This document shows positions 12,481-22,106 of a DNA stretch of 64,000 bases, one piece after another. Location of the stretch: the NCBI RefSeq assembly GCF_015624505.1, contig NZ_CP061379.1, positions 1,240,001 to 1,304,000 on the forward strand. The letters are read 5' to 3'. Positions within the stretch are counted from its first letter, which is position 1; the number at the start of each line of letters is the position of its first letter. The translations under genes were made by a program, and so were the position numbers. The stretch is from Bradyrhizobium commune (GTDB lineage: Bacteria; Pseudomonadota; Alphaproteobacteria; Rhizobiales; Xanthobacteraceae). The notes beneath the pieces are model-generated. The model saw nothing but the letters and a program-made list of their open reading frames with translations, did no database searches and had not been told where the DNA came from.

Positions 12481-13446
12481 CTAATACCCCCGCGCCCGAT
12501 CCACCACGTTCTCCAGCGCGCCTCCCGCCTCGAACCGCGCGATCTGCTCGGCGACGTAGGCCGAGATGGCGTCCGCATCAGTGTCAGCCGCGTTGTGCGG
12601 CGTCAGCAGCACTTTTGGGTGGGTCCAGAACCGGCTATCCTTTGGCTGCGGCTCCTGCACGAAGACGTCGAGCGAGGCGGCGCCCAGCGTGCCGTCGTCG
12701 AGGCAGGCCAGGATGTCGGCCTCGTTTTGCAAGCCGCCGCGGCCGGCATTGATCAGCACGGGTGCGCCGAACGGGCCCTTGCGGTGAAGCTTTGTAAAGA
12801 CGTCGCGGTTGAGGATGCCGTGCGTGTCAGGCGTCAGCGGCAGCAGGCAGACCAGAATGTCGGTTGCGCGCAGGAAGGCGTCCATCCCGGCGGTGCCGTG
12901 AAAACATTCGACGCCGTCGATGGTGCGCGGGCCACGGCTCCAGCCGGTGACGCGGAAGCTGAGCCGCCGCAGCACGTTTGCGGCATCGGCGCCGAGCGCG
13001 CCGAGCCCCATGACGCCGACGGTGACCGCGCTCGCCGGCCACTGATATTTCGGTTCCCAACGTTTTGCGTGCTGCGAGTCCCGCAGATAGAGCTCCTGAC
13101 GGTGGTGCATCAGCACATGCAGCACGACATATTCGGTCATGCGGTTGGTGAGATCAGGCACAGCGACGCGCACCAGCGGCACGTCAGGCAGGCTCTTGTC
13201 CGCCATCAGCGCATCGACTCCCGCGCCGAGATTGAAGACCGCACGCAGGTTCGGGAACGCCTTGAGATCGCCCGGCACCGGCTTCCACACCGCGGCATAG
13301 TGCACCTCCGTCGGATCGAGCCCGGCATCGGGCAGCAGCACCACGCGGCGGTCGCCGCAGACCGCATCGAAACGGGCCTTCCAGCGCTCCGGCAGCCAGT
13401 TCTGCTGCGTGCTGTTGATCAGGACGGCCAGCGTACCTTTGGTCAT
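12481..13446 (-). CDS. D-2-hydroxyacid dehydrogenase, GhrA-like (glyoxylate/hydroxypyruvate reductase A)
   Basis: A cytoplasmic NAD(P)H-dependent reductase of 2-oxoacids. The Rossmann motif GVMGLGALGADAANVLRRL lies at about residues 140-158. The family catalytic set is visible: Arg in INAGRGGLQNEAD, an acidic residue in LGAASLDVFVQEP, and His in LTPHNAADTD. In place of the classical HELLAL N-terminus it has the GhrA type, with a VFNLGAGVDAL loop. The start at 13446 (MTKGTLAVLINS) is chosen; longer frames add unlikely residues. It is 321 aa, the usual length. It stands alone, divergent from the YCII-ECF pair, and shares its upstream region with their promoter. Confidence 0.9.
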   Translation of the reverse strand: MTKGTLAVLINSTQQNWLPERWKARFDAVCGDRRVVLLPDAGLDPTEVHYAAVWKPVPGDLKAFPNLRAVFNLGAGVDALMADKSLPDVPLVRVAVPDLTNRMTEYVVLHVLMHHRQELYLRDSQHAKRWEPKYQWPASAVTVGVMGLGALGADAANVLRRLSFRVTGWSRGPRTIDGVECFHGTAGMDAFLRATDILVCLLPLTPDTHGILNRDVFTKLHRKGPFGAPVLINAGRGGLQNEADILACLDDGTLGAASLDVFVQEPQPKDSRFWTHPKVLLTPHNAADTDADAISAYVAEQIARFEAGGALENVVDRARGY

Positions 13447-13520
13447 TCGAAGTGCCTCGTCGCGTTCAGCTTTTTGGTGGCCCTCCTTGGCACGATCCGT
13501 CGGATTTTTCTTGCAATTTT

Positions 13521-13561
13521 TTTCCGCAGCCGTGTCGGGGCGGGGCATAGTGGATCGTCTT
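13521..13561 (+). promoter_or_regulatory. ECF42-type promoter P1 (YCII-sigma operon)
   Basis: TGTCGG (13533-13538), a 16-bp spacer and TCGTCTT (13555-13561), 30 bp before the YCII start codon. The 18-bp block TTTCCGCAGCCGTGTCGG here is identical to that before the YCII operon at 20017. The hexamers fit the ECF42 consensus as I recall it (TGTCGA and CG[A/T]C). Location before the sigma gene implies autoregulation. Confidence 0.8.
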
Positions 13562-13591
13562 CAAAACAAGAGGTCGGGGAAGGGGCTGCCC

Positions 13592-13960
13592 ATGCTTTAT
13601 GCGATCCTTTGCTATCATGACGAGGACTTCGTCGGCTCCTGGAGCAAGGACCAGGACGAGGCCGTGATGAAGAAGCTCGCCGTGGTACAAGAGAACCTCG
13701 CGAAGCAGGGGCGGCTTGGCCCGGTGGCGCGGCTGTTGCCGACCACGGCGGCGGCGACGTTGCGCAAAGAGGATCCGCCGCTGGTGCTCGACGGCCCCTA
13801 TGCCGAGACCAAGGAGCAACTGCTCGGTTTCTACATCGTCGACTGCAAGAATCTCGACGAGGCGCTCGACGTCGCCCGAGACCTCGGCGCGGCCAATCCC
13901 GGCGGCGCCTATGAGGTCCGCCCCGTCGGCGTGTTCAGGCCGGGAGGAAACCTGACGTGA
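13592..13960 (+). CDS. YCII/DGPF family protein, partner of the ECF42 sigma factor
   Basis: A 122-aa single-domain protein of the YCII (DGPF) superfamily, a small ferredoxin-like alpha/beta fold. It opens MLYAILCYHDEDF, has the diagnostic DGPYAETKEQLLGFYIVD (about residues 65-82; the DGPF variant is DGPY) and ends with VRPVGVF. DGPF proteins are the constant genomic companions of ECF42 sigma factors, but their biochemical role is unknown; they have not been shown to be anti-sigma factors. The start at 13592 gives the conserved N-terminus. The stop codon overlaps the GTG start of the sigma gene (GTGA), so translation is coupled. Confidence 0.92.
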   Translation: MLYAILCYHDEDFVGSWSKDQDEAVMKKLAVVQENLAKQGRLGPVARLLPTTAAATLRKEDPPLVLDGPYAETKEQLLGFYIVDCKNLDEALDVARDLGAANPGGAYEVRPVGVFRPGGNLT

Positions 13961-15258
13961 GCGATACCGATACCGCCTGGATCGAGACCGCGCTGACCTC
14001 GGCGCGACCTCAGGCGGTGGGTGCGCTGCTCCGCTATTTCCGCGATCTCGACACCGCCGAGGAAGCCTTCCAGAACGCCTGCCTGCGGGCGCTGAAAACC
14101 TGGCCGCAGAACGGACCGCCGCGCGATCCGGCGGCCTGGCTGATCATGGTCGGCCGCAATGTCGCCATCGACGAGGTGCGCCGGACCCGCAAGCAGCAAC
14201 CGTTGCCCGAGGACGACCAGGCGATCTCCGATCTCGACGATGCCGAGGGCGCGCTCGCCGAACGGCTCGACGGCTCGCATTATCGCGACGACATTTTGCG
14301 ACTGATGTTCATCTGCTGCCATCCGCAACTGCCGGCGACGCAGCAGATCGCGCTGGCGCTCCGCATCGTCTCGGGCCTGACCGTGAAGCAGATCGCGCGC
14401 GCCTTCCTGGTCTCGGACGCCGCGATGGAGCAGCGCATCACGCGCGCCAAGGCCAAGGTCGCCGAGGCCGGGACGCCGTTCGAGGCGCCCGGCGCGATCG
14501 AGCGCTCCGAGCGGCTCGCCGGCGTCGCCGCGATGATCTATTTGATCTTCAACGAGGGCTATTCGGCGAGCGGTGACACCGCCGAGATCAGAAAGCCGCT
14601 CTGCGAGGAAGCGATCCGCCTGGCGCGGCTGCTGCTGCGCCTGTTCCAGGGCGAGCCGGAGATCATGGGGTTGACCGCGCTGATCCTGCTTCAGCATGCG
14701 CGCAGCGCCGCGCGCTTTGCATCCGACGGCTCGCTCATCCTGCTGGAGGACCAGAACCGCTCGCTGTGGAACGGCACCATGATCGCGGAGGGATTGGCGC
14801 TGATCGACAAGGCGATGCGTCATCGTCGCAGCGGTCCCTACCAGATCCAGGCCGCGATTGCCGCGCTGCATGCGCGCGCAGCGACGCCGGACGAGACCGA
14901 CTGGACCCAGATCGACCTGCTCTATGGCGCGCTCGAAGTGGTGCAGCCCTCGCCCGTGGTGACGCTCAACCGCGCGGTCGCGGTCTCCAAGGTGCGCGGG
15001 CCGCAGGCTGCGCTCGAGCTGATCGAGCCGCTGGCACCGAAGCTCGCCAACTATTTCCATTTCTATGGTGTGCGCGGCGCATTCCTGATGCAGCTCGGCC
15101 GCAACGACGAGGCGCGCATCGCCTTCGATCGTGCCATCGCGCTTGCCAACACCTCGGCCGAAGCCGCCCATATCCGGATGCATATCGATCGACTGATCCG
15201 GGATAGCCAGCCTCACGGAACCAATGGCGGTACCAGGCAGGGCGCCAAGGCCAAGTGA
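13957..15258 (+). CDS. ECF sigma factor, ECF42 group, with long C-terminal extension
   Basis: An extracytoplasmic-function RNA polymerase sigma factor of 433 aa, far longer than the usual 180-200. Region 2 lies at about residues 10-90 (ALLRYFRDLDTAEEAFQNACLRAL, then DPAAWLIMVGRNVAIDEVRR). Region 4 is at about 115-170, with RIVSGLTVKQIARAFLVSDAAMEQRITRAK as HTH. After it comes the DUF6596/TPR-like extension, with MIYLIFNEGYSASGD and later NRAVAVSKVRGPQAAL and NYFHFYGVRGAFL. This extension marks ECF42 proteins and replaces a classical membrane anti-sigma factor. The GTG start overlaps the YCII stop. Four matching promoters in this window point to a local regulon. Confidence 0.93.
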   Translation: MSDTDTAWIETALTSARPQAVGALLRYFRDLDTAEEAFQNACLRALKTWPQNGPPRDPAAWLIMVGRNVAIDEVRRTRKQQPLPEDDQAISDLDDAEGALAERLDGSHYRDDILRLMFICCHPQLPATQQIALALRIVSGLTVKQIARAFLVSDAAMEQRITRAKAKVAEAGTPFEAPGAIERSERLAGVAAMIYLIFNEGYSASGDTAEIRKPLCEEAIRLARLLLRLFQGEPEIMGLTALILLQHARSAARFASDGSLILLEDQNRSLWNGTMIAEGLALIDKAMRHRRSGPYQIQAAIAALHARAATPDETDWTQIDLLYGALEVVQPSPVVTLNRAVAVSKVRGPQAALELIEPLAPKLANYFHFYGVRGAFLMQLGRNDEARIAFDRAIALANTSAEAAHIRMHIDRLIRDSQPHGTNGGTRQGAKAK

Positions 15259-15270
15259 CGGCCAAAAAAT

Positions 15271-15311
15271 CGTTCCGTCAGTTGTCGGCCCCAGCTCGCC
15301 CCCTTCGTCCT
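15271..15311 (+). promoter_or_regulatory. ECF42-type promoter P3 (SRPBCC-VOC operon)
   Basis: TGTCGG (15283-15288), a 16-bp spacer and TCGTCCT (15305-15311), ending 24 bp before the ATG at 15336. A TTCCG stretch precedes the -35 as in P1 and P2. It lies in the 77-bp gap after the sigma gene, so the next two genes can be driven directly by this sigma factor as well as by read-through. Confidence 0.72.
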
Positions 15312-15335
15312 TAGCCCGTATCCAGGGAGCCATTC

Positions 15336-15872
15336 ATGCTGAAAGCCATTGCCATCATCGCGATCGTGCTCGCCGTCGGGATCGCGGCCATCCTCGTTTT
15401 TGCCCTCACCAAGCCCGATACGTTCCGTGTCGAGCGCTCGCTCGCCATGAAGGCGCCGGCCGGTGCGATCTATCCGCTGGTTGTCGATTTCCACCGCTGG
15501 ACCGGCTGGTCGCCCTATGAGAATCGCGATCCGGCCATGAAGCGCAGCTTCGGTGGAACCGAGCAAGGCAAAGGTGCGACCTATGCCTGGGACGGCAACA
15601 ACAATGTCGGTGCCGGCCACATGGAGATTCTCGAAGCCAGCACACCGTCGAAGCTGCGCATCAAGCTCGATTTCGAGCGTCCCTTCGAAGGCCACAACAC
15701 CGCCGAGTTCACCTTTGTGCCGCAAGGCGATGCCACACTGGTCACATGGGCGATGTACGGTCCGGCCCCCTTCATATCCAAGCTGATGCAGGTCTTCATC
15801 AACATGGACAATATGATCGGCAAGGATTTTGAAACCGGCCTCGCCAGCCTGAAGAAGCTCACCGAGAGATAA
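15336..15872 (+). CDS. SRPBCC (START/polyketide-cyclase fold) family protein with N-terminal anchor
   Basis: A 178-aa protein with one N-terminal hydrophobic helix (residues 3-27, MLKAIAIIAIVLAVGIAAIL), which may be an uncleaved membrane anchor. A ligand-binding SRPBCC domain follows: VERSLAMKAPAGAIYPLVVDFHRWTGWSPYE, WDGNNNVGAGHMEIL and the last amphipathic helix LASLKKLTE. Such domains bind hydrophobic ligands in a deep cavity; the ligand here is unknown. It follows the ECF42 sigma gene after 77 bp, has its own matching promoter, and is followed after 37 bp by a VOC gene. SRPBCC and VOC proteins are often found in the same stress-linked clusters as YCII proteins. Confidence 0.88.
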   Translation: MLKAIAIIAIVLAVGIAAILVFALTKPDTFRVERSLAMKAPAGAIYPLVVDFHRWTGWSPYENRDPAMKRSFGGTEQGKGATYAWDGNNNVGAGHMEILEASTPSKLRIKLDFERPFEGHNTAEFTFVPQGDATLVTWAMYGPAPFISKLMQVFINMDNMIGKDFETGLASLKKLTER

Positions 15873-15909
15873 CGCCCCAAACGCCTAGACAAGATAAAGG
15901 AGAGAAACG

Positions 15910-16323
15910 ATGCTCAATCCCTATCTGTTCTATCAGGACACCTGCGAAGCGGCTTTCAACTTCTACGCCAAGGTTCTCGGCGGCAAGATCGAAATGATGC
16001 TGCGTGCTTCTGAGGGACCGCCGGACATGCGGCCCTCGCCAGGTCGCGAGAAGATGATCATGCATGCGCGAATGTCGCTCCCTGGCGGCAGCGTGTTGAT
16101 GGCCTCCGACGCGCCGCCCGATCACTTCAACAAGCCGCAGGGCTTCTCGATCTCCCTGACGGTTGCGGACCCCGCGGAGGGCGAGCGCAAGTTCAACGCG
16201 CTCGCAGATGGCGGCTCGGTCACTATGCCGTTCAGCAAGACCTTCTGGGCCAAGGGCTTTGGCATGTGTGTCGACAAGTTCGGTATTCCCTGGATGGTGA
16301 ATTGCCCGGCCGAAGGAATGTGA
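15910..16323 (+). CDS. VOC family protein (PhnB/glyoxalase-like)
   Basis: A 137-aa vicinal-oxygen-chelate protein with paired beta-alpha-beta-beta-beta modules. It begins MLNPYLFYQDTCEAAFNFYAKVLGGKIE, the PhnB-type opening, has HARMSLPGGSVLMASDAPP in the middle and ends WAKGFGMCVDKFGIPWMVNC. PhnB-like members are widespread, and few have a known reaction; most are thought to bind or modify small electrophiles or antibiotics. An AAAGGAGAG ribosome-binding site precedes the ATG. It is the second gene after promoter P3. Confidence 0.9.
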   Translation: MLNPYLFYQDTCEAAFNFYAKVLGGKIEMMLRASEGPPDMRPSPGREKMIMHARMSLPGGSVLMASDAPPDHFNKPQGFSISLTVADPAEGERKFNALADGGSVTMPFSKTFWAKGFGMCVDKFGIPWMVNCPAEGM

Positions 16324-16344
16324 GAGCAAGTCTAAAGCATTGAG

Positions 16345-16386
16345 TCGCGACGCCCTCTCCCCCATTTTGGGGAGAGCGCGTCGCGA
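16345..16386. terminator. Long hairpin after the SRPBCC-VOC pair
   Basis: An 18-bp arm pair with one mismatch (TCGCGACGCCCTCTCCCC at 16345-16362 against 16369-16386) around a six-base loop lies 22 bp after the VOC stop. It resembles the CCCTCTCCCC repeat type common in bradyrhizobial intergenic DNA. It is probably both a repeat element and a transcription barrier. Confidence 0.55.
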
Positions 16387-16698
16387 AGCACCGCGATCAG
16401 GTCGCCACTGCACGCGTTAATGGAACCGCTTCGTCGGTGATTGAACGTGGCTTGTCGTATACAATGGCGCAACTATGCCTTGTGGATGCGATCGCATCGC
16501 ACAACATTTGGCGAAATATTGGGCTGTAAATTTTCGCCCGGAATCGCTAATTGTATGTCACAAAATCTACAAACTAGGGTGGACGTGACTTGGAAGGGAG
16601 CGGCCGATGGCGGCGGCGCTACAAATCAATTTCGCTCTTTGGGGGATGCTCATCTGCGCCAGCATGAAGATGGCGCCGGTGATATGGGCGCATTTCTT
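16387..16698. other. Intergenic stretch without a supported gene
   Basis: About 310 bp, with a segment (roughly 16440-16600) visibly lower in GC than its surroundings. The only symmetric motif I see is around GTATAC near 16459. An open frame on the plus strand crosses it but has no family features and runs antisense to the small membrane protein that follows. I see no gene. Confidence 0.5.
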
Positions 16699-16878
16699 CT
16701 AGAAAAGCAGCCAGCTTGTGAGCGCGACGGCGCCTTCGCCGAGCGCGTAGATCCAGCCGACGGTCGCGATGGCGGTGGCACCCAGGAACGTCGCCGTAAA
16801 GACGTGTTCCCCCGCTCTCTGCAAGAGAGACGGTTGAGCTTGTGAATCAGCGTGTCCGTCGGTGCTGATGCTGGTCAT
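16699..16878 (-). CDS. Small single-pass membrane protein, hypothetical
   Basis: A 59-aa protein starting MTSISTDGHADSQAQPS, with a GGAG ribosome-binding site 8-11 nt before its ATG. The N-terminal half is polar. Residues about 30-58 form one or two hydrophobic helices (FTATFLGATAIATVGWIYAL followed by a short loop and ALTSWLLF). I do not recognise a named family. It lies 117 bp downstream of the next minus-strand gene and may be co-transcribed with it. It is kept because the start signal and membrane segment are convincing; a longer frame upstream adds nothing plausible. Confidence 0.6.
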   Translation of the reverse strand: MTSISTDGHADSQAQPSLLQRAGEHVFTATFLGATAIATVGWIYALGEGAVALTSWLLF

Positions 16879-16995
16879 GACTGATCTCCGCGGACATCCC
16901 TGTAGCTTGGCGCAAGCTATGCCAAACCAACTTGGCCTTAGTGTGACGCGGTTCACAGATGTCGCGAATTTTTGCCGGCGTGAGCGCGCGGCTCG

Positions 16996-17406
16996 TCAGC
17001 TGGTCAACATCGCGATCAGCATGAAGCCAACGCTCATCACAACAACGATGGGAACCACGTAGTTGTGTGACGACCGTGGCGACTGGGGCTTTCGCCAAGG
17101 TAGCGGCTCATTCGTGTCGTCGACATGCTCGAAGTCGGCAGGTCCGAACGGGGCGTAGGCAGGCTCTAGGCGCTCGTGTTCGAAGGGCTCATCGACGGGT
17201 TGCAGAGGGGCGAGCGGAACCTGCGTGCTGGAACCGCTGTACTTCACATAGAGTTCCAGCAGCCGAAGCTCGGACGGCAAATCGAGCCGTCCCTCGCGAT
17301 CACGCCGGGACAGCACCTCGAATTCAAGAGTTTCCTCGGAACTCAGCGGGCCAAGCACGATGCGCCCCTGATCCGACATGCGGTAACGAAAATCGATGGG
17401 CTGCAT
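16996..17406 (-). CDS. Tail-anchored hypothetical protein
   Basis: A 136-aa protein, taken from the ATG at 17406 (MQPIDFRYRMSDQGRIVLGP). An acidic, soluble N-terminal region of about 110 residues contains LSSEETLEFEVLSRRDREGRLDLPSELRLLELYVKY. A single C-terminal hydrophobic helix, residues about 116-136 (YVVPIVVVMSVGFMLIAML), then ends the protein after two residues. This is a tail-anchored topology with the bulk in the cytoplasm. No known domain is recognised. A longer open frame upstream encodes an unlikely basic extension and was not used. Confidence 0.6.
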   Translation of the reverse strand: MQPIDFRYRMSDQGRIVLGPLSSEETLEFEVLSRRDREGRLDLPSELRLLELYVKYSGSSTQVPLAPLQPVDEPFEHERLEPAYAPFGPADFEHVDDTNEPLPWRKPQSPRSSHNYVVPIVVVMSVGFMLIAMLTS

Positions 17407-17619
17407 GCGCGCGACCCGCCTTGAAAAATGAACCGATCTCAAAAAAAATACCAGACCATCATAGACGGCGGCGAAGATTTTAGAAAATGCGTAAATTGGG
17501 CAATGGTTGCCGAGCGGATGAGCTGATTTACTATATCCGATCGGCTTTTTGCCCAACCATCGGACAAAGCCCCCGTCCTTTCAAGTGAGGACGCGTGCCG
17601 GACAGGCGCGGCCCGGGAC

Positions 17620-18057
17620 TCAACGGCAGCGCGGATAGATCGCTACGAGGTCACGCCCCTTCAACAGAAGCAGTCGCGACGTCAGGCCGCCGCGGCGGCT
17701 GATCCAGTCGCGCACCGGCCCGGGATAGGCTTGGAGCACGGCTTCGGAAGCTTCCGGCTCGGCATAGAAGCGCCCGCGGCGGTCGACTGAACGCGCCGCA
17801 TGGAAGCCGAGCACGGCGCGCTTGGTGACGCAGATGCGCTCGCCCGGCACGATGCTCAGCACGAGCGTGCAGGCGGACAGGCAGGGACCGTCAATCACCA
17901 CCCGCTCGCCGCTCTCGCGCACCTTTTCGAACAGGTCGAGGAATGGTCCGACCTGTCCGCCGGGGCTCTGGATGATCCGGATCTCGGCGGCGGCGGGCGC
18001 GGAGACGAGCAGGGCGGCTGCGAGAATCCAGGCTTTGACGAGGGCAACGCGTCGCAT
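17620..18057 (-). CDS. Exported ClpP/crotonase-like protein (COG3904-type)
   Basis: A 145-aa protein with a signal peptide (MRRVALVKAWILAAALLVSA, cleavage after AAA near residue 24). The mature part has IIQSPGGQVGPFLDLFEKV, then VVIDGPCLSACTLVLSIV and RAVLGFHAA. The pattern of a glycine-rich turn followed by GxCxSAC and a later His is that of COG3904-type periplasmic proteins related to ClpP/SDH serine proteases. Ser in LSAC would be the nucleophile and His in GFHAA the base, although activity has not been shown for this group to my knowledge. The start at 18057 removes a non-family extension that runs into a repeat element. Confidence 0.72.
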   Translation of the reverse strand: MRRVALVKAWILAAALLVSAPAAAEIRIIQSPGGQVGPFLDLFEKVRESGERVVIDGPCLSACTLVLSIVPGERICVTKRAVLGFHAARSVDRRGRFYAEPEASEAVLQAYPGPVRDWISRRGGLTSRLLLLKGRDLVAIYPRCR

Positions 18058-18079
18058 GAAGCACTCCACGAGCTCGATT

Positions 18080-18175
18080 CCGTAGGGTAGGCAAAGCGTA
18101 GCGTGCCCACCAATATCACCGCAAACCTGGAGACGTGGTGGGCACGGCCCTTGCGTGCCTTTGGCCACCCTACGG
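18080..18175. repeat. ~96-bp inverted repeat element (GGTGGGC type)
   Basis: Outer arms CCGTAGGGT and ACCCTACGG bracket two inner modules, GGCAAAGCGTAGCGTGCCCACC and its approximate inverse after about 24 bp of loop. The same architecture occurs at 39357-39450. It lies between two minus-strand genes. It looks like a dispersed intergenic palindrome of the bradyrhizobial type, non-coding. Confidence 0.7.
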
Positions 18176-18186
18176 CAGTATGAGGT

Positions 18187-18975
18187 TCACCCGTTCCGCC
18201 GCTCGCCGCGCAGTGTCGGCAGGCCGATGCCCGCCGCATCGAAGCCGCCATCGACGGCCAAAATTTGGCCGGTGATGTAGCTCGCGCGCTCCGAGCACAG
18301 GAAGAAGATCGCCTCCGCGAGCTCCTCCTCCAGGCCGTAGCGGTTGAGCGGGATGGCGTCATGATAGTCCGCGCGGATCTCCTTGGTGTGCACTTGCTTC
18401 GCCATCGCGGTATCGACCGGCCCCGGCGCCACCGCGTTGACGCGGATGTTGAGGGAGGCGAGCTCGACCGCGAGCTGCTTGGTGAGATGCGCCAGACCAG
18501 CCTTGCTGGTGCCGTAAGCCGAGCGCAGCGTCGAGGCGCGCACCGCCGAGATCGAGGTGATGTTGACGATGGCGCCGCCGCCTTGCTCGCGGATCAGCGG
18601 CGCGGCCGCCTTGGTGCACAGGAACGGGCCGCTGAGATTGACCGCCATGATCCTGTTCCAGTCGGCGTTGCTGGTCTCCAGCACCGGCGCGAACACGGCG
18701 ACGCCGGCATTGTTGACGAGAGCATCGAGCCGTCCGAAGCGGTTCATGATCGCTGCCATCGCGGCTCCCACGGCGGCTGCATCGGACACGTCGCAGGTGA
18801 TTGCCAGGGTGTGATCGGGATTCTTCAGCGCCGCCACCGCGCTCGCCTGCAGCTCTCCCTCGATATCGAGCAGCGCCACGCGCCACCCGTCGGCGAGGAA
18901 GCGTTTCGCCGTCGCGAGTCCAATCCCGCGCGCGGCGCCGGTGACGAGGGCAACTTTTTGCAAGGCTTGCGACAT
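18187..18975 (-). CDS. SDR family NAD(P)-dependent oxidoreductase
   Basis: A classical short-chain dehydrogenase of 262 aa. It has the cofactor motif TGAARGIG (about residues 13-20), an acidic residue in LLDIEG that favours NAD(H), NNAGVAVF (about 90), a catalytic Ser in NITSISAV, and the YGTSKAGLAHL YxxxK pair (about 158-162). After these come PGPVDTAM and the C-terminal ITGQILAVDGGFDAAG. All catalytic residues are present, unlike the SDR at 24367. It is divergent from the cupin gene with 95 bp between them. The substrate is unknown. Confidence 0.93.
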   Translation of the reverse strand: MSQALQKVALVTGAARGIGLATAKRFLADGWRVALLDIEGELQASAVAALKNPDHTLAITCDVSDAAAVGAAMAAIMNRFGRLDALVNNAGVAVFAPVLETSNADWNRIMAVNLSGPFLCTKAAAPLIREQGGGAIVNITSISAVRASTLRSAYGTSKAGLAHLTKQLAVELASLNIRVNAVAPGPVDTAMAKQVHTKEIRADYHDAIPLNRYGLEEELAEAIFFLCSERASYITGQILAVDGGFDAAGIGLPTLRGERRNG

Positions 18976-19070
18976 TTGCTAATCTGTCCTGTGTCCGAAC
19001 GGCGCGCTCGCGCGCGAGCGCCGGCCCCTTATTACTTCGCTTTCGTCCCGGCAAGAAAGGGCCTTACACC

Positions 19071-19448
19071 ATGCCCATCGACCCCAGCACGATCCCGCTC
19101 GAGGACTGGCGGCCGGGTGTAAGGACGCGCATGGTGACATCGGCGCGCAACGGCGCCACCGCGCTCTGTATCTTTGAGCAATGGGTTGATCCCGGCGCCG
19201 GCGCGCCGACGCACAGCCACACGGTCGAGGAGGTGCTGACGGTGCGCGCCGGCGAGGCCGAGATGTGGATCGAGGCCGAGCACGTCACGGTCGTGGCGGG
19301 CCAGTCGCTGCTGATCCCCGCCGGCCGCAAGCACGGCTTTCGCAATTCGGGCCCGGCGACGCTGCACGTCCACGCCGTGCTGGCCTCGCCAGTCTTCGAG
19401 GCGCTCCCGGAGGGAGCCCGCGGGGTGACGCGACGGTGGGAGCGGTAG
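19071..19448 (+). CDS. Cupin domain protein
   Basis: A 125-aa single cupin barrel. Motif 1 is GAGAPTHSHTVEEVLTVRAGEAE (about residues 42-64), giving the His-x-His and Glu metal ligands. Motif 2 is PAGRKHGFRNSG (about 84-95), giving the third His. It probably binds a divalent metal, but such single-domain cupins include sensors, isomerases and dioxygenases, and no function can be chosen. It sits between the divergent SDR gene and the ECF42-type promoter of the SnoaL-like gene. Confidence 0.88.
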   Translation: MPIDPSTIPLEDWRPGVRTRMVTSARNGATALCIFEQWVDPGAGAPTHSHTVEEVLTVRAGEAEMWIEAEHVTVVAGQSLLIPAGRKHGFRNSGPATLHVHAVLASPVFEALPEGARGVTRRWER

Positions 19449-19482
19449 GGTCGGAGCTTCGCGGCGGATCGCTGCGACAAAA

Positions 19483-19511
19483 TGTCGGCGCGATCGTGCA
19501 TGCATCGTCTT
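19483..19511 (+). promoter_or_regulatory. ECF42-type promoter P4 (SnoaL-like gene)
   Basis: TGTCGG (19483-19488), a 16-bp spacer and TCGTCTT (19505-19511), 28 bp before the ATG at 19540. Spacer length and the -10 heptamer equal those of P1 and P2. The extended TTTCCGCAGC block is not conserved here. Confidence 0.7.
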
Positions 19512-19539
19512 TACTGAGTGATGCCGAAGGAAACGCGCG

Positions 19540-19905
19540 ATGCCGGACGACCGCGAGCAGCTGATTCGAAACCTCTTCGCCGCCTATCTCGCCAATGACA
19601 AGCAGCGGGTCAGTGACGCGCTCGCCGACGACTTCCGCTTCACCAGCCCGTTCGACGCCGACCTCGACAAGGCGCGCTATTTCGAACGGTGCTGGCGGGA
19701 CACCGGCTGGATCGCCCGCCACGAGATCGAGCGCATTGTTGTCGCCGGCGACGAGGCCTTCGTCACCTATCACTGCCTGGCAAGAGATGGCAGGAGCTTT
19801 CGCAACACCGAGTTCTTCACTTTCGCCGCCGACAGGGTCCGCCGCATCGAGGTCTATTTCGGCGCCACATTCCAGGACGGCCGGTTCGTGCCGCAACCGC
19901 AATAA
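19540..19905 (+). CDS. Nuclear transport factor 2 / SnoaL-like family protein
   Basis: A 121-aa alpha+beta barrel protein of the NTF2-like superfamily. Its parts are DREQLIRNLFAAYLANDKQRVSDALADDFRFTSPFD (residues 3-38, the helical N-terminus and first strand), a central YFERCWRDTGW, and VRRIEVYFGATFQDGRFV at the C-terminus. Such proteins include ketosteroid-isomerase-like enzymes, polyketide cyclases and many uncharacterised stress proteins; no active-site assignment is safe. It has its own ECF42-type promoter and is followed by promoter P2, so it looks like a non-YCII member of the sigma regulon. Confidence 0.88.
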   Translation: MPDDREQLIRNLFAAYLANDKQRVSDALADDFRFTSPFDADLDKARYFERCWRDTGWIARHEIERIVVAGDEAFVTYHCLARDGRSFRNTEFFTFAADRVRRIEVYFGATFQDGRFVPQPQ

Positions 19906-19918
19906 CCTCCAAAAATAA

Positions 19919-19959
19919 TTTCCGCAGCCGTGTCGGTTCTGTAAAAGATCGCTCGTCTT
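19919..19959 (+). promoter_or_regulatory. ECF42-type promoter P2 (YCII operon)
   Basis: TGTCGG (19931-19936), a 16-bp spacer and TCGTCTT (19953-19959), 57 bp before the ATG at 20017. The 18 bp TTTCCGCAGCCGTGTCGG are identical to P1, 6.4 kb away. A match of this length outside coding sequence, with the same spacer, is unlikely by chance. Confidence 0.8.
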
Positions 19960-20016
19960 ACAGGGGAGCGCGGGTCGGGGTTGACCGCGCCCTGAAAAGG
20001 TTACGGAGCGAAGTCG

Positions 20017-20433
20017 ATGCGTTTCATGGTGATCGTCAAGGCGAACGGGGACACCGAGGCCGGCAAGATGCCGAGCACGGAGAGGCTGGCCGCCATGGGC
20101 CAATTCAACGAGGAGATGGCCAAGGCCGGCGTGATCGAGGCGGGCGAGGGCCTGCATCCGACGGTGAAGGGCGCCAGGGTGAAGTATGGGGCGTCCGAGG
20201 CGAGCGTCGCCCGCGGTCCGTTCGATCTCTCTCCCGACCTGATCGCCGGCTTCTGGCTGATCAAGACCGCCTCGCTCGACGAGGCGATCGCCTGGATGAA
20301 GCGCGCGCCGTTTGATCCGGGCTCCGAGATCGAGATCCGCCAGGTGTTCTCGGCCGAGGATTTTGGCGAGGCCTTCACGCCCGAGCTGCGCGAGCAGGAA
20401 GAGCGCACGCGCGCCCACGCGGCGAAGAAGTGA
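20017..20433 (+). CDS. YCII/DGPF family protein
   Basis: A 138-aa YCII-superfamily protein: MRFMVIVKANGDTEAG at the start, GPFDLSPDLIAGFWLIKTASLDEAIAWMKR (the DGPF region, here RGPFD) and IEIRQVFSAEDFGEAF. It is the first of three related genes spaced 37 and 32 bp apart, under promoter P2. A partly charged C-terminal tail (ELREQEERTRAHAAKK) is specific to this copy. Its biochemical function is unknown. Confidence 0.9.
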   Translation: MRFMVIVKANGDTEAGKMPSTERLAAMGQFNEEMAKAGVIEAGEGLHPTVKGARVKYGASEASVARGPFDLSPDLIAGFWLIKTASLDEAIAWMKRAPFDPGSEIEIRQVFSAEDFGEAFTPELREQEERTRAHAAKK

Positions 20434-20470
20434 CGGCGTAGCGGTCATTCGAACCAAACAAGGATCCCCA

Positions 20471-20875
20471 ATGCGATTCATGATGCTGATGATCCCGCTC
20501 GGTTACGAGACCGCGCCTCCGGACGTGCAACTCGATCCCGAACGCGTCGCTGCGATGATGCGCTACAACGAGGCGCTCAAGGATGCCGGCGTCCTGATCA
20601 CGCTCGACGGTCTGCACCCTCCGTCGATGGGCGCGCGCGTGTCGTTTGCGACCGGCGAGCCAATCGTCACCGACGGCCCCTTCACCGAGGCCAAGGAGGT
20701 TTTGGGCGGTTACTGGATGATCGAGGTCGCTTCGCGCGCGGAGGCGATCGCCTGGGCCAAGAAGTGCCCGGCATCGCCCAACGAGGTGATCGAGATCCGC
20801 CAGGTGCAGGAAATGTCCGATTTCTCGCCGGAGGTGCAGGAGGCTGCTGCCGGCTTCGGTGACCTCAAGAAGTAG
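20471..20875 (+). CDS. YCII/DGPF family protein
   Basis: A 134-aa paralogue of the preceding gene. The start at 20471 aligns its MRFMMLMIPLGYE with the neighbour and follows an AAGGATC ribosome-binding site. It has the canonical DGPFTEAKEVLGGYWMIEV (about residues 70-88), then IEIRQVQEM. It retains the full DGPF tetrapeptide, which the first paralogue has as RGPF. It is second in the operon. Confidence 0.9.
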   Translation: MRFMMLMIPLGYETAPPDVQLDPERVAAMMRYNEALKDAGVLITLDGLHPPSMGARVSFATGEPIVTDGPFTEAKEVLGGYWMIEVASRAEAIAWAKKCPASPNEVIEIRQVQEMSDFSPEVQEAAAGFGDLKK

Positions 20876-20907
20876 TCTGATCGTTCAGCAAAAGGGAGAA
20901 ACCGCCA

Positions 20908-21270
20908 ATGAGCACCGATACCTATCTCGCCGTTTTCCTCGGCAGCAAGACCAGTCCGAAATGGGCGGCGTGGCACGCGATGCCAGAGGCCGAGCGCAAG
21001 GCGAAGGAAATGGAAGGCATGGTGGCCTGGAAGGGCTGGGTCGAGAAGCACCAAGGCGCAATCCAGGCCATGGGCGGTCCCCTCGGCAAGACCAAGCAGG
21101 TCGACGGCAAGGGCGTCGCCGACATCGCCAACGAGATGGGCGCCTTCACCGTGGTCCGTGCCGCCTCCCACGAAGCGGCGGCCAAGATGTTCGAGAACCA
21201 TCCGCACTTCGCGATCTTCCCCGGCGAGCGTGTCGAGATCATGCCGGTGCTGCCGATCCCCGGCGGCTAG
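20908..21270 (+). CDS. YCII-like small protein, divergent
   Basis: A 120-aa protein that opens MSTDTYLAVFLGSKTSPKW and carries MGGPLGKTKQVDGKGVADIANEMGAFTVV in place of the DGPF segment. It then has FENHPHFAIFPGERVEIMPVLPIPGG. The length, fold pattern and position 32 bp after two YCII genes make a distant YCII-family (dimeric alpha/beta barrel) identity likely. The diagnostic tetrapeptide is lost. It is third and last in the P2 operon; a TetR gene follows. Confidence 0.8.
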   Translation: MSTDTYLAVFLGSKTSPKWAAWHAMPEAERKAKEMEGMVAWKGWVEKHQGAIQAMGGPLGKTKQVDGKGVADIANEMGAFTVVRAASHEAAAKMFENHPHFAIFPGERVEIMPVLPIPGG

Positions 21271-21341
21271 GGCCATAGGCGTCCCGGATTGCGGGAACTA
21301 TGGGTTCACCAAATCCGGCCCCGCGCTAGTGACCTTCACGC

Positions 21342-21374
21342 CCAGCTCATGTAAAAGCCGTTCACATGAGCTGG
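21342..21374. promoter_or_regulatory. Perfect 11-bp inverted repeat over the tetR start codon (candidate operator)
   Basis: CCAGCTCATGT (21342-21352) and ACATGAGCTGG (21364-21374) are exact reverse complements 11 bp apart, and the ATG of the TetR gene lies in the second arm. Inside sits TGTAAA-N5-TTCACA (21350-21366), which matches TGTAAA-N5-TTTACA upstream of the next gene. Placement suggests autorepression. Confidence 0.65.
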
Positions 21375-22106
21375 CGCAAGGAAGAGCGCCGCGCCGAGCG
21401 CGGCTATCACCACGGCAATCTGAAGGAAGCCTTGTTGCAGGCTGCCCTCGGCCTGATCGCCGAGAAGGGCGCGGCCGGCTTCACCTTTGCCGATGCCGCG
21501 CGCATGGCCGGCGTCAGCGCGGCGGCGCCGTACCGCCATTTCCGCGATCGCGACGAGCTGTTGTCCTCGATCGCGCAACGCGGCTTCGAGCAGTTCGAGC
21601 AGCGGCTGACCGCGGCCTGGGACGACGGACGGCCCGACACCGTCACGGCGTTCGAGCGCGTCGGCAAGGCCTATCTCGCCTTCGCCCGCGAGGAGCCTGC
21701 CTTCTACAACGCGATGTTCGAATCCGGCCTGCCGGTCGATGCCAATCCGGCGCTGCAGGCCGCGAGCGAGCGCGCCTTCAACATCATTCGCGCCGCCGCC
21801 GAGCGACTCGCGGCGCTGGCACCGCCCGGCACGCCGCGTCCGCCGGCGATGATGATGGCGCTGCATATCTGGTCGATGTCGCACGGCGTGGCCTCGCTGT
21901 TCTCGCGTGGCGATGCTGCGCGGCGAAAGCTGCCGATGTCGCCGGACGAGCTGTTGGAGGCCGAGGTGCTGATCTATCTGCGTGGGCTCGGCTTTCCGAC
22001 CGACCGCCGTCCGCCGGCCCAAGGCGCCGAGCCGCCGCCGGTGCCGCCGGAGGCTCCCTCCGGTTCTGGCGTGCCCCCCGGCGGACCCTGGGGCAAGCCG
22101 AAATAA
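21366..22106 (+). CDS. TetR/AcrR family regulator with WHG-type C-terminal domain
   Basis: A 246-aa repressor. The N-terminus is basic (MSWRKEERRAERGYHHGNLKEALLQAAL), typical of the GYHHGNLR subfamily. The HTH is GFTFADAARMAGVSAAAPYRHFRDRDELLSSIA (about residues 38-70), with SAAAPYRHF the recognition helix. The C-terminal ligand domain contains LHIWSMSHGVASLFSRG, the signature of the WHG (TetR_C_33) type. The tail is proline-rich (about residue 215 on). The gene starts inside a perfect inverted repeat. A related half-site pair precedes the following DUF2852 gene, which is its likely target. Confidence 0.92.
   Translation: MSWRKEERRAERGYHHGNLKEALLQAALGLIAEKGAAGFTFADAARMAGVSAAAPYRHFRDRDELLSSIAQRGFEQFEQRLTAAWDDGRPDTVTAFERVGKAYLAFAREEPAFYNAMFESGLPVDANPALQAASERAFNIIRAAAERLAALAPPGTPRPPAMMMALHIWSMSHGVASLFSRGDAARRKLPMSPDELLEAEVLIYLRGLGFPTDRRPPAQGAEPPPVPPEAPSGSGVPPGGPWGKPK

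Follow-up and report, generated by a model that had tools for sequence, protein, structure and literature searches.

The 64,000-nucleotide window considered here (Bradyrhizobium commune, contig NZ_CP061379.1 of GCF_015624505.1, positions 1,240,001-1,304,000 of the forward strand, in a 7.6-Mb single-contig genome) carries a cluster of genes for small proteins around the gene of an ECF42-type sigma factor, ECF standing for extracytoplasmic function. Four nearly identical sequences, P1 to P4, precede these genes and are very probably promoters that this sigma factor recognises. The features of the cluster, in positions of the window, are the following.

13533..13561, + strand: putative promoter P1, TGTCGG-N16-TCGTCTT, before the YCII-sigma operon
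13592..13960, + strand: YCII-domain protein (YCII_1; PF03795, 70.6 bits in a scan that began at residue 2)
13957..15258, + strand: ECF42-type sigma factor (PF04542, PF08281, PF20239; helical C-terminus resembling tetratricopeptide repeats, TPR)
15283..15311, + strand: putative promoter P2, TGTCGG-N16-TCGTCCT, 25 nt past the sigma stop
15336..15872, + strand: SRPBCC (Polyketide_cyc2) protein (PF10604, 41.7 bits)
15910..16323, + strand: VOC/glyoxalase-fold protein, downstream gene of the P2 unit (PF06983, PF00903)
19483..19511, + strand: putative promoter P3, TGTCGG-N16-TCGTCTT, before the SnoaL-like gene
19540..19905, + strand: SnoaL-like protein (PF12680, 36.3 bits)
19931..19959, + strand: putative promoter P4, TGTCGG-N16-TCGTCTT, before a run of three YCII genes
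20017..20433, + strand: YCII-domain protein 2 (YCII_2; PF03795, 43.5 bits)
20471..20875, + strand: YCII-domain protein 3 (YCII_3; PF03795, 76.9 bits)
20908..21270, + strand: YCII-like protein 4 (YCII_4), last gene of the P4 unit (PF03795, 23.1 bits, just below the 24-bit cut-off)

The stop codon of YCII_1 overlaps the start of the sigma gene (GTGA). A divergent gene for a 2-hydroxyacid dehydrogenase starts beside P1 on the minus strand, and a gene for a TetR-type protein (21366-22106) adjoins the P4 unit. Against the NF007537 (YjdN) model, the VOC protein scored under that model's cut-off, and a Pfam search of the flanking YCII, SRPBCC, VOC and 2-hydroxyacid dehydrogenase genes found no anti-sigma domain.

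According to the review PMC8999054, the ECF42 group is characterized by a TPR-bearing extension and a YCII neighbour, and control by protein interaction has been suggested for it. The sigma factor of the window displays PF04542 at residues 17-79 and PF08281 at 116-167 and no further sigma domain (sigma2 and sigma4 without sigma3), followed by DUF6596 (PF20239). Its AlphaFold2 model, for which 21 close sequences were used, is poor up to residue 114 and good for much of the remainder; it places helices at 273-417, and TPR domains match at about residues 291-419, which corresponds to the C-terminal extension of about 200 residues expected in this group. The adjoining PF03795 gene that overlaps the sigma start has a homologue in all 80 loci of the conservation set described below. 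Finally, the four sequences P1 to P4 have the TGTCG(x) and CG(A/T)C elements of ECF42-type target promoters and match the RpoE10 promoters of Sinorhizobium meliloti given in Table 1 of PMC6180224. The ECF42 type assigned in the preliminary description of this DNA is thus upheld by sigma2, sigma4, DUF6596 and a predicted TPR-like C-terminus. The nearest named relatives of the protein are from Bradyrhizobium strains (97% identity), and a sequence search of the PDB gave three weak matches (E 0.00028-0.00096), all to the sigma part.

The pattern TGTCGG-N16-TCGTC(C/T)T is matched exactly on the + strand at the four positions first reported, each time 53-86 nt before a start codon. Indeed, the distance from motif start to start codon is 59 nt for P1 (YCII, 13592), 53 nt for P2 (SRPBCC, 15336), 57 nt for P3 (SnoaL-like, 19540) and 86 nt for P4 (YCII, 20017). 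When at most two mismatches are tolerated, the window holds nine matches versus 3.11 (standard deviation 1.69) in shuffled sequences, none of 100 shuffles reaching nine. The whole genome contains eight exact matches, four of them being P1 to P4 in a 6.4-kb part of the window, and none to the reversed pattern. Scans of 13400-21400 for sigma70 promoters (1 versus 1.4 in shuffles) and for terminators (7 versus 5.7, standard deviation 2.5) did not rise clearly above the shuffles. One detail of the preliminary description needs correction: the identical 18-bp block attributed to P1 and P2, TTTCCGCAGCCGTGTCGG, actually lies at 13521-13538 and 19919-19936, i.e. at P1 and P4, the counterpart at P2 reading ...CCGTCAGTTGTCGG. 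In alignments of relatives, conservation upstream of TGTCGG is seen at P1 (79 copies) and not at P4 (71 copies), so the block does not belong to the common motif.

Conservation was assessed in 80 named Bradyrhizobium loci, the best 80 of 334 by sigma protein, which total 1.63 Mb. The strict pattern has 212 matches there, all on the sense strand, and its reversed version has none. All these matches except three precede a homologue of a YCII, SRPBCC or SnoaL gene of the window (209/212): SRPBCC in 71 cases, YCII_3 in 57, YCII_1 in 47, SnoaL in 25, YCII_2 in eight and YCII_4 in one, the last three having no reference gene. The looser form TGTCGG-N17-CGTC stands before YCII_1 in 80/80 loci (strict pattern in 47), before SRPBCC in 72 of the 78 loci that have the gene (77/78 if any sixth base is allowed), before SnoaL in 28/31, before YCII_2 in 9/9 and before YCII_3 in 57/75. 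A single SRPBCC gene among the 80 loci (L083) lacks the standard spacing, having one extra spacer base, and among the eight YCII_3 misses listed, some by eye follow another YCII gene, the promoter lying presumably further upstream. At P2, the two elements reach 1.94 and 1.84 bits per position versus 0.94 in the spacer and 0.46 upstream; more generally, P2, P3 and P4 keep two short elements while their spacers and flanks drift. P1 is conserved over a longer stretch than its -35 and -10 elements, including an upstream TTTCCGC and GGCATA in the spacer (window 13500-13592), and a second control element may overlap it, beside the divergent dehydrogenase start. The distance of the P3 and P4 units from the sigma gene varies among species; the motif therefore stays with its gene.

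These data make it very probable that the ECF42-type sigma factor encoded at 13957-15258, which would belong to the same sub-type as S. meliloti RpoE10, reads the four repeats as its promoters, and that these form the local part of a dispersed regulon. The -35 element would be TGTCGG and the -10 element TCGTC(C/T)T, with a spacer of 16 nt, and the four units would consist of the YCII-sigma operon (P1), the SRPBCC-VOC pair (P2), the SnoaL-like gene (P3) and the three YCII genes (P4). Sequence comparison provides the motif with its spacing, the conservation and the association with the sigma orthologue across genomes, and the published relative provides the transcription start site and sigma dependence of a P2-type promoter; that the sigma factor of the window itself reads P1 to P4 in B. 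commune is what we infer.

The regulon appears to extend far beyond the cluster. A relaxed scan of the B. commune genome (TGTCGR-N17-CGTC(C/T)T) returned 18 matches versus four for the reversed pattern, 12 of them before gene starts: the four promoters of the window and sites preceding an AHSA1/SRPBCC gene, two glutathione S-transferase (GST) genes, two VOC genes, a YCII gene, a major facilitator superfamily (MFS) transporter gene (TGTCGA) and a gene for an 85-residue protein beside coaD. Judged from these sites, the regulon of this genome probably also covers the second SRPBCC gene, both GST and both VOC genes and the further YCII gene, and possibly the 85-residue protein and the MFS transporter. 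In four further Bradyrhizobium genomes, every strict match (40) was read, the genes being named by translation and by likeness to scanned proteins; here and in the other families below, representatives of the target genes were confirmed by Pfam and Ku by a Ku family search, the others being named by visible likeness. A plausible gene follows 37 of the 40 matches, and 25 of these genes are YCII, SRPBCC, SnoaL, VOC or GST. By type, nine matches precede SRPBCC, eight YCII, five GST, five Ku (one disrupted), four MFS, three the 85-residue protein, two SnoaL and one VOC genes, three having no plausible gene. By coordinates and gene, 11 lie in the sigma cluster and 29 outside. In three genomes of other families, 17 of 20 strict matches precede a plausible gene and three do not; the 17 include four VOC, three YCII, three SRPBCC/AHSA1 and one SnoaL genes, and one each of DUF1428, DUF899, DoxX, SDR, SMP-30 and MFS. 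The preliminary description had proposed a genome-wide scan for matches upstream of YCII, SRPBCC, VOC and SnoaL genes, and the outcome is positive; on the other hand, its 'local' regulon is too narrow a term, since 29/40 matches in the four other genomes and 8/12 gene-start sites in B. commune fall outside the cluster.

Two features of these target regions deserve mention in their own right. The gene of the 85-residue protein (L008; L187, L198, L208), whose product has a hydrophobic N-terminus and no Pfam match, shows the conserved motif upstream and is divergent from coaD (named by eye). In B. commune, a single intergenic region (L006/L021; G000 about 1,828,290-1,828,553) carries two copies of the motif that face a GST gene and a VOC gene, respectively. 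Within the cluster, the P2 unit encodes an SRPBCC protein whose N-terminal stretch is hydrophobic (window 15336-15410) and which may be membrane-anchored.

The motif also tracks the sigma factor across genomes. Among 150 genomes drawn from the order, 28 hold a relative of the window sigma at >=59% identity, and 27 of these 28 carry the motif (94 matches, two reverse matches), versus 13 of the 122 genomes without a close orthologue (13 matches, 11 reverse matches). By coordinates, two of these last 13 matches adjoin a more distant sigma relative (G309, G407). Outside the genus, 12 of 63 matches lie within 3.5 kb of the sigma orthologue and 51 beyond. Of 249 phylum genomes, 48 have an ECF42 sigma factor, and further members of the group were taken from these, two partial matches being left out; promoters were sought 380-580 nt before the sigma start in the resulting 73 loci, that of the window included. 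TGTCG...CG[A/T]C was found in 45 of them, and TGTCGG...CGTC occupies the expected place before the sigma operon in 18 of the 19 loci whose sigma has >=59% identity. The proposal of four promoters and a regulon of small-fold proteins made in the preliminary description is therefore backed both by conservation and by the 150-genome comparison of motif and sigma.

Several observations weigh against this interpretation or temper it. In 31 Bradyrhizobium genomes, the strict N16 pattern gives 242 matches and its reverse 14; spacer-shifted patterns are not rare in the same genomes, with 106 matches for N17 (reverse 47) and 66 for N15 (reverse 24). The reversed-pattern control is thus too generous and the spacer-shifted controls lend weaker support, N16 being still in clear excess under this harsher control; a few N17 matches look like real variants (e.g. 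L083). In the 150-genome comparison, kinship makes the genomes non-independent and the 59% line was set post hoc, so that P-values are only a guide. Within the searched range, no such promoter precedes the close orthologue of L146 (74% identity), nor does one precede 18 of the 19 ECF42 loci whose genomes fall outside the class; together with L146, these belong to the 28 loci without promoter. For many of the outside-class loci, the upstream sequence was limited to about 950 nt. These outside-class loci may use another motif. Of the 18 matches of the relaxed scan in B. commune, we judge six to be intragenic. The presumed orthology with S. meliloti RpoE10 is drawn from the gene order and the motif as published. 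Finally, according to PMC6180224, overexpression of RpoE10 gave no rise of SMc01151, i.e. of the YCII-sigma operon, and the mapped 5' end of this operon overlaps the motif.

This last point feeds the alternative that survives best, in which P1 is not autoregulatory in vivo, the YCII-sigma operon uses another promoter and the sigma factor targets only P2 to P4 and distant sites. Besides the S. meliloti result, the extra conserved sequence upstream of P1 and in its spacer hints at another control. The presence of TGTCGG-N17-CGTC before the YCII gene in every locus of the conservation set, and of the motif at 18 of the 19 close-orthologue sigma operons of the phylum sample, argues in the opposite direction. 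We regard this alternative as unlikely, though it deserves serious consideration; the autoregulation first proposed was a fair guess and is unproven, the equivalent S. meliloti operon not being raised by RpoE10 overexpression (PMC6180224).

It is much less probable that the promoters are real and read by another ECF sigma factor, such as a second ECF42, an ECF41 or EcfG. ECF promoters do resemble each other, that of the S. meliloti ECF41 RpoE9 reading TGTCAC...CGTC (PMC6180224), and the B. commune genome does encode a second DUF6596 sigma factor. The latter belongs to a second YCII-ECF42 pair located at 1.880 Mb (L181 / G000:C1:1877550-1881352), whose YCII promoter is TGTCGC-N16-TCGACT, and ECF41 has CAC where the promoters of the window have CGG. 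Furthermore, the presence of the motif follows that of the window sigma orthologue (27/28 genomes with it versus 13/122 without). A tree of the 45 promoter-bearing loci, from which the 28 loci without promoter (including L146) and S. meliloti RpoE10 were left out, points the same way. In the clade of the window sigma, the promoter is TGTCGG/CGTC in 19/19 loci, and L113, outside this clade, likewise has TGTCGG...CGTC; in the clade of the second ECF42, it is TGTCG[T/C]/CGAC in 5/5, and in another clade TGTCGA/CGTC in 8/8. The second dialect also occurs in B. commune at 5.576 Mb (L108, L109), as TGTCGT...TCGACT before an alpha/beta-hydrolase-like gene (named by eye). Three Bradyrhizobium genomes carry all three ECF42 types (G140, G229, G246). 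The different promoter of the second ECF42 suggests that the two paralogues form insulated circuits in the B. commune cell. Correlations between sigma residues and promoter bases were also sought as a sign of specificity. Such positions exist; because the tree needs only four changes of the -35 base and three of the -10 base, phylogeny explains most of the covariation, and no specificity residue is claimed.

The hypothesis that the repeat is an operator of an ordinary DNA-binding regulator, e.g. the TetR-type protein 21366-22106, appears very improbable. Four clustered identical sites next to a TetR gene could be operators; the site is, however, non-palindromic, faces its gene in 212/212 strict matches of the 80 loci with its 16-nt gap kept, and mostly lies about 50-130 nt before the start codon. 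In addition, its S. meliloti match is start-site-mapped as a promoter (PMC6180224), and the copies outside the cluster are far from that TetR gene. Conservation and strand bias lead us to reject the operator reading. A functionless GC-rich repeat, present by chance or by spread, is the least credible reading: the motif is short, some copies elsewhere lie inside genes and spacer-shifted versions are not rare, yet this reading is refuted by the strand bias (212 forward versus no reverse-strand and no control match in the 1.63 Mb of relatives) and by the conservation of P2-P4 mainly in two short elements with drifting spacers.

The link with Ku raises questions of its own. The best Ku locus per genome was considered in 30 genomes out of 31 searched. 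In 19 of them (L222-L234, L236-L240, L242), TGTCGGAAC-N14-CGTC is found about 94-101 nt before the Pfam match; the 11 others lack it, including B. commune (L235), where the best Ku gene alone was examined. Since GGAAC is present in these promoters, an EcfG reading was considered and discarded: GGAAC-N16-18-CGTT occurs in none of the 30 within 250 nt upstream, and the gap between GGAAC and CGTC is only 14 nt. In the Ku promoters, extra conserved bases follow both elements, AAC behind TGTCGG and GAATC behind the -10, and in view of these a different sigma factor may serve them. As a separate observation, a disrupted Ku gene retains the upstream motif (L217, G025). Tentatively, and with somewhat less than even confidence, one could envisage that Bradyrhizobium cells harbour up to three insulated ECF42 circuits (TGTCGG/CGTC, TGTCG[T,C]/CGAC and TGTCGA/CGTC), of which the RpoE10-type one would be a dispersed chemical-damage regulon joining ligand-capturing small proteins, GSTs and an MFS exporter to Ku and thereby to DNA end-joining.

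A mechanism can be proposed, whose promoter part is well supported and whose sensing part is drawn from reviews and from the anatomy of the protein. PMC9023288 models the TPR domain as a binding site whose occupation suppresses sigma activity. In an unstressed cell, the sigma factor would similarly be restrained through its C-terminal TPR-like extension. Chemical stress would free it, the sensor being perhaps the YCII protein encoded alongside, and the freed sigma would guide RNA polymerase to the TGTCGG-N16-TCGTC(C/T)T promoters of the cluster and of the whole genome. The cell would then contain more small ligand-binding and detoxifying proteins and more exporter, these products capturing or modifying small hydrophobic or electrophilic molecules, and P1 would close a positive feedback loop.

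ECF42 sigma factors are widespread, and their signal and purpose are unclear. A promoter that tracks its sigma factor turns into a list of candidate co-regulated genes, i.e. GST, glyoxalase-fold, lipid-binding-fold and exporter genes and, in many Bradyrhizobium, Ku. Such a list suggests that the signal consists of toxic small molecules or of chemicals that damage DNA, and it supplies reporters with which this signal can be sought. Because ECF42 paralogues of one cell differ in their promoters, they furthermore allow promoter specificity to be tested within a single ECF group.

Among the systems already described, the ECF42 sigma factors of Streptomyces venezuelae, the subject of Liu et al. in 2018, reportedly use a TGTCGA -35 and a CG[A/T]C -10 element and target mainly adjacent DGPF genes. 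Like the sigma factor of the window, they have a TPR-bearing C-terminal extension and a YCII/DGPF neighbour (PMC8999054), and ECF-10 of Pseudomonas putida belongs to the ECF42 group with a similar genomic context according to PMC6180224. The closest comparison is with S. meliloti. Its RpoE10, classed as ECF42 with six responding genes (PMC6180224), is likewise encoded downstream of a YCII gene. The SMc01149-SMc01148 operon (a hydrophobic-ligand-binding and a glyoxalase-like protein) has TGTCGG-N16-TCGTC before its mapped transcription start site and rises on RpoE10 overexpression; the same sequence overlaps the mapped start of the YCII gene SMc01151, and a distant glyoxalase-like operon, SMb20475, has TGTCGG-N16-GCGTC upstream (PMC6180224). 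The SMc01149 and SMc01151 promoters evidently correspond to P2 and P1, respectively. Therefore, the alphaproteobacterial small-protein regulon to which the preliminary description would extend the ECF42 pairing was already published for RpoE10 (PMC6180224). Literature searches of titles and abstract openings returned no link of ECF42 to Ku, GST or MFS and no promoter dialects per ECF42 clade, a result from which absence from print is not claimed. The core of the observation is thus known from S. meliloti, and the size and spread of the regulon, its link to GST, MFS and Ku and the dialects of the paralogues are apparently undescribed. Compared with the six genes of RpoE10 (PMC6180224), the window displays four promoters in 6.4 kb, including those of a SnoaL unit and of a three-gene YCII unit, and its genome has further copies of the motif before GST, VOC, SRPBCC and YCII genes elsewhere.

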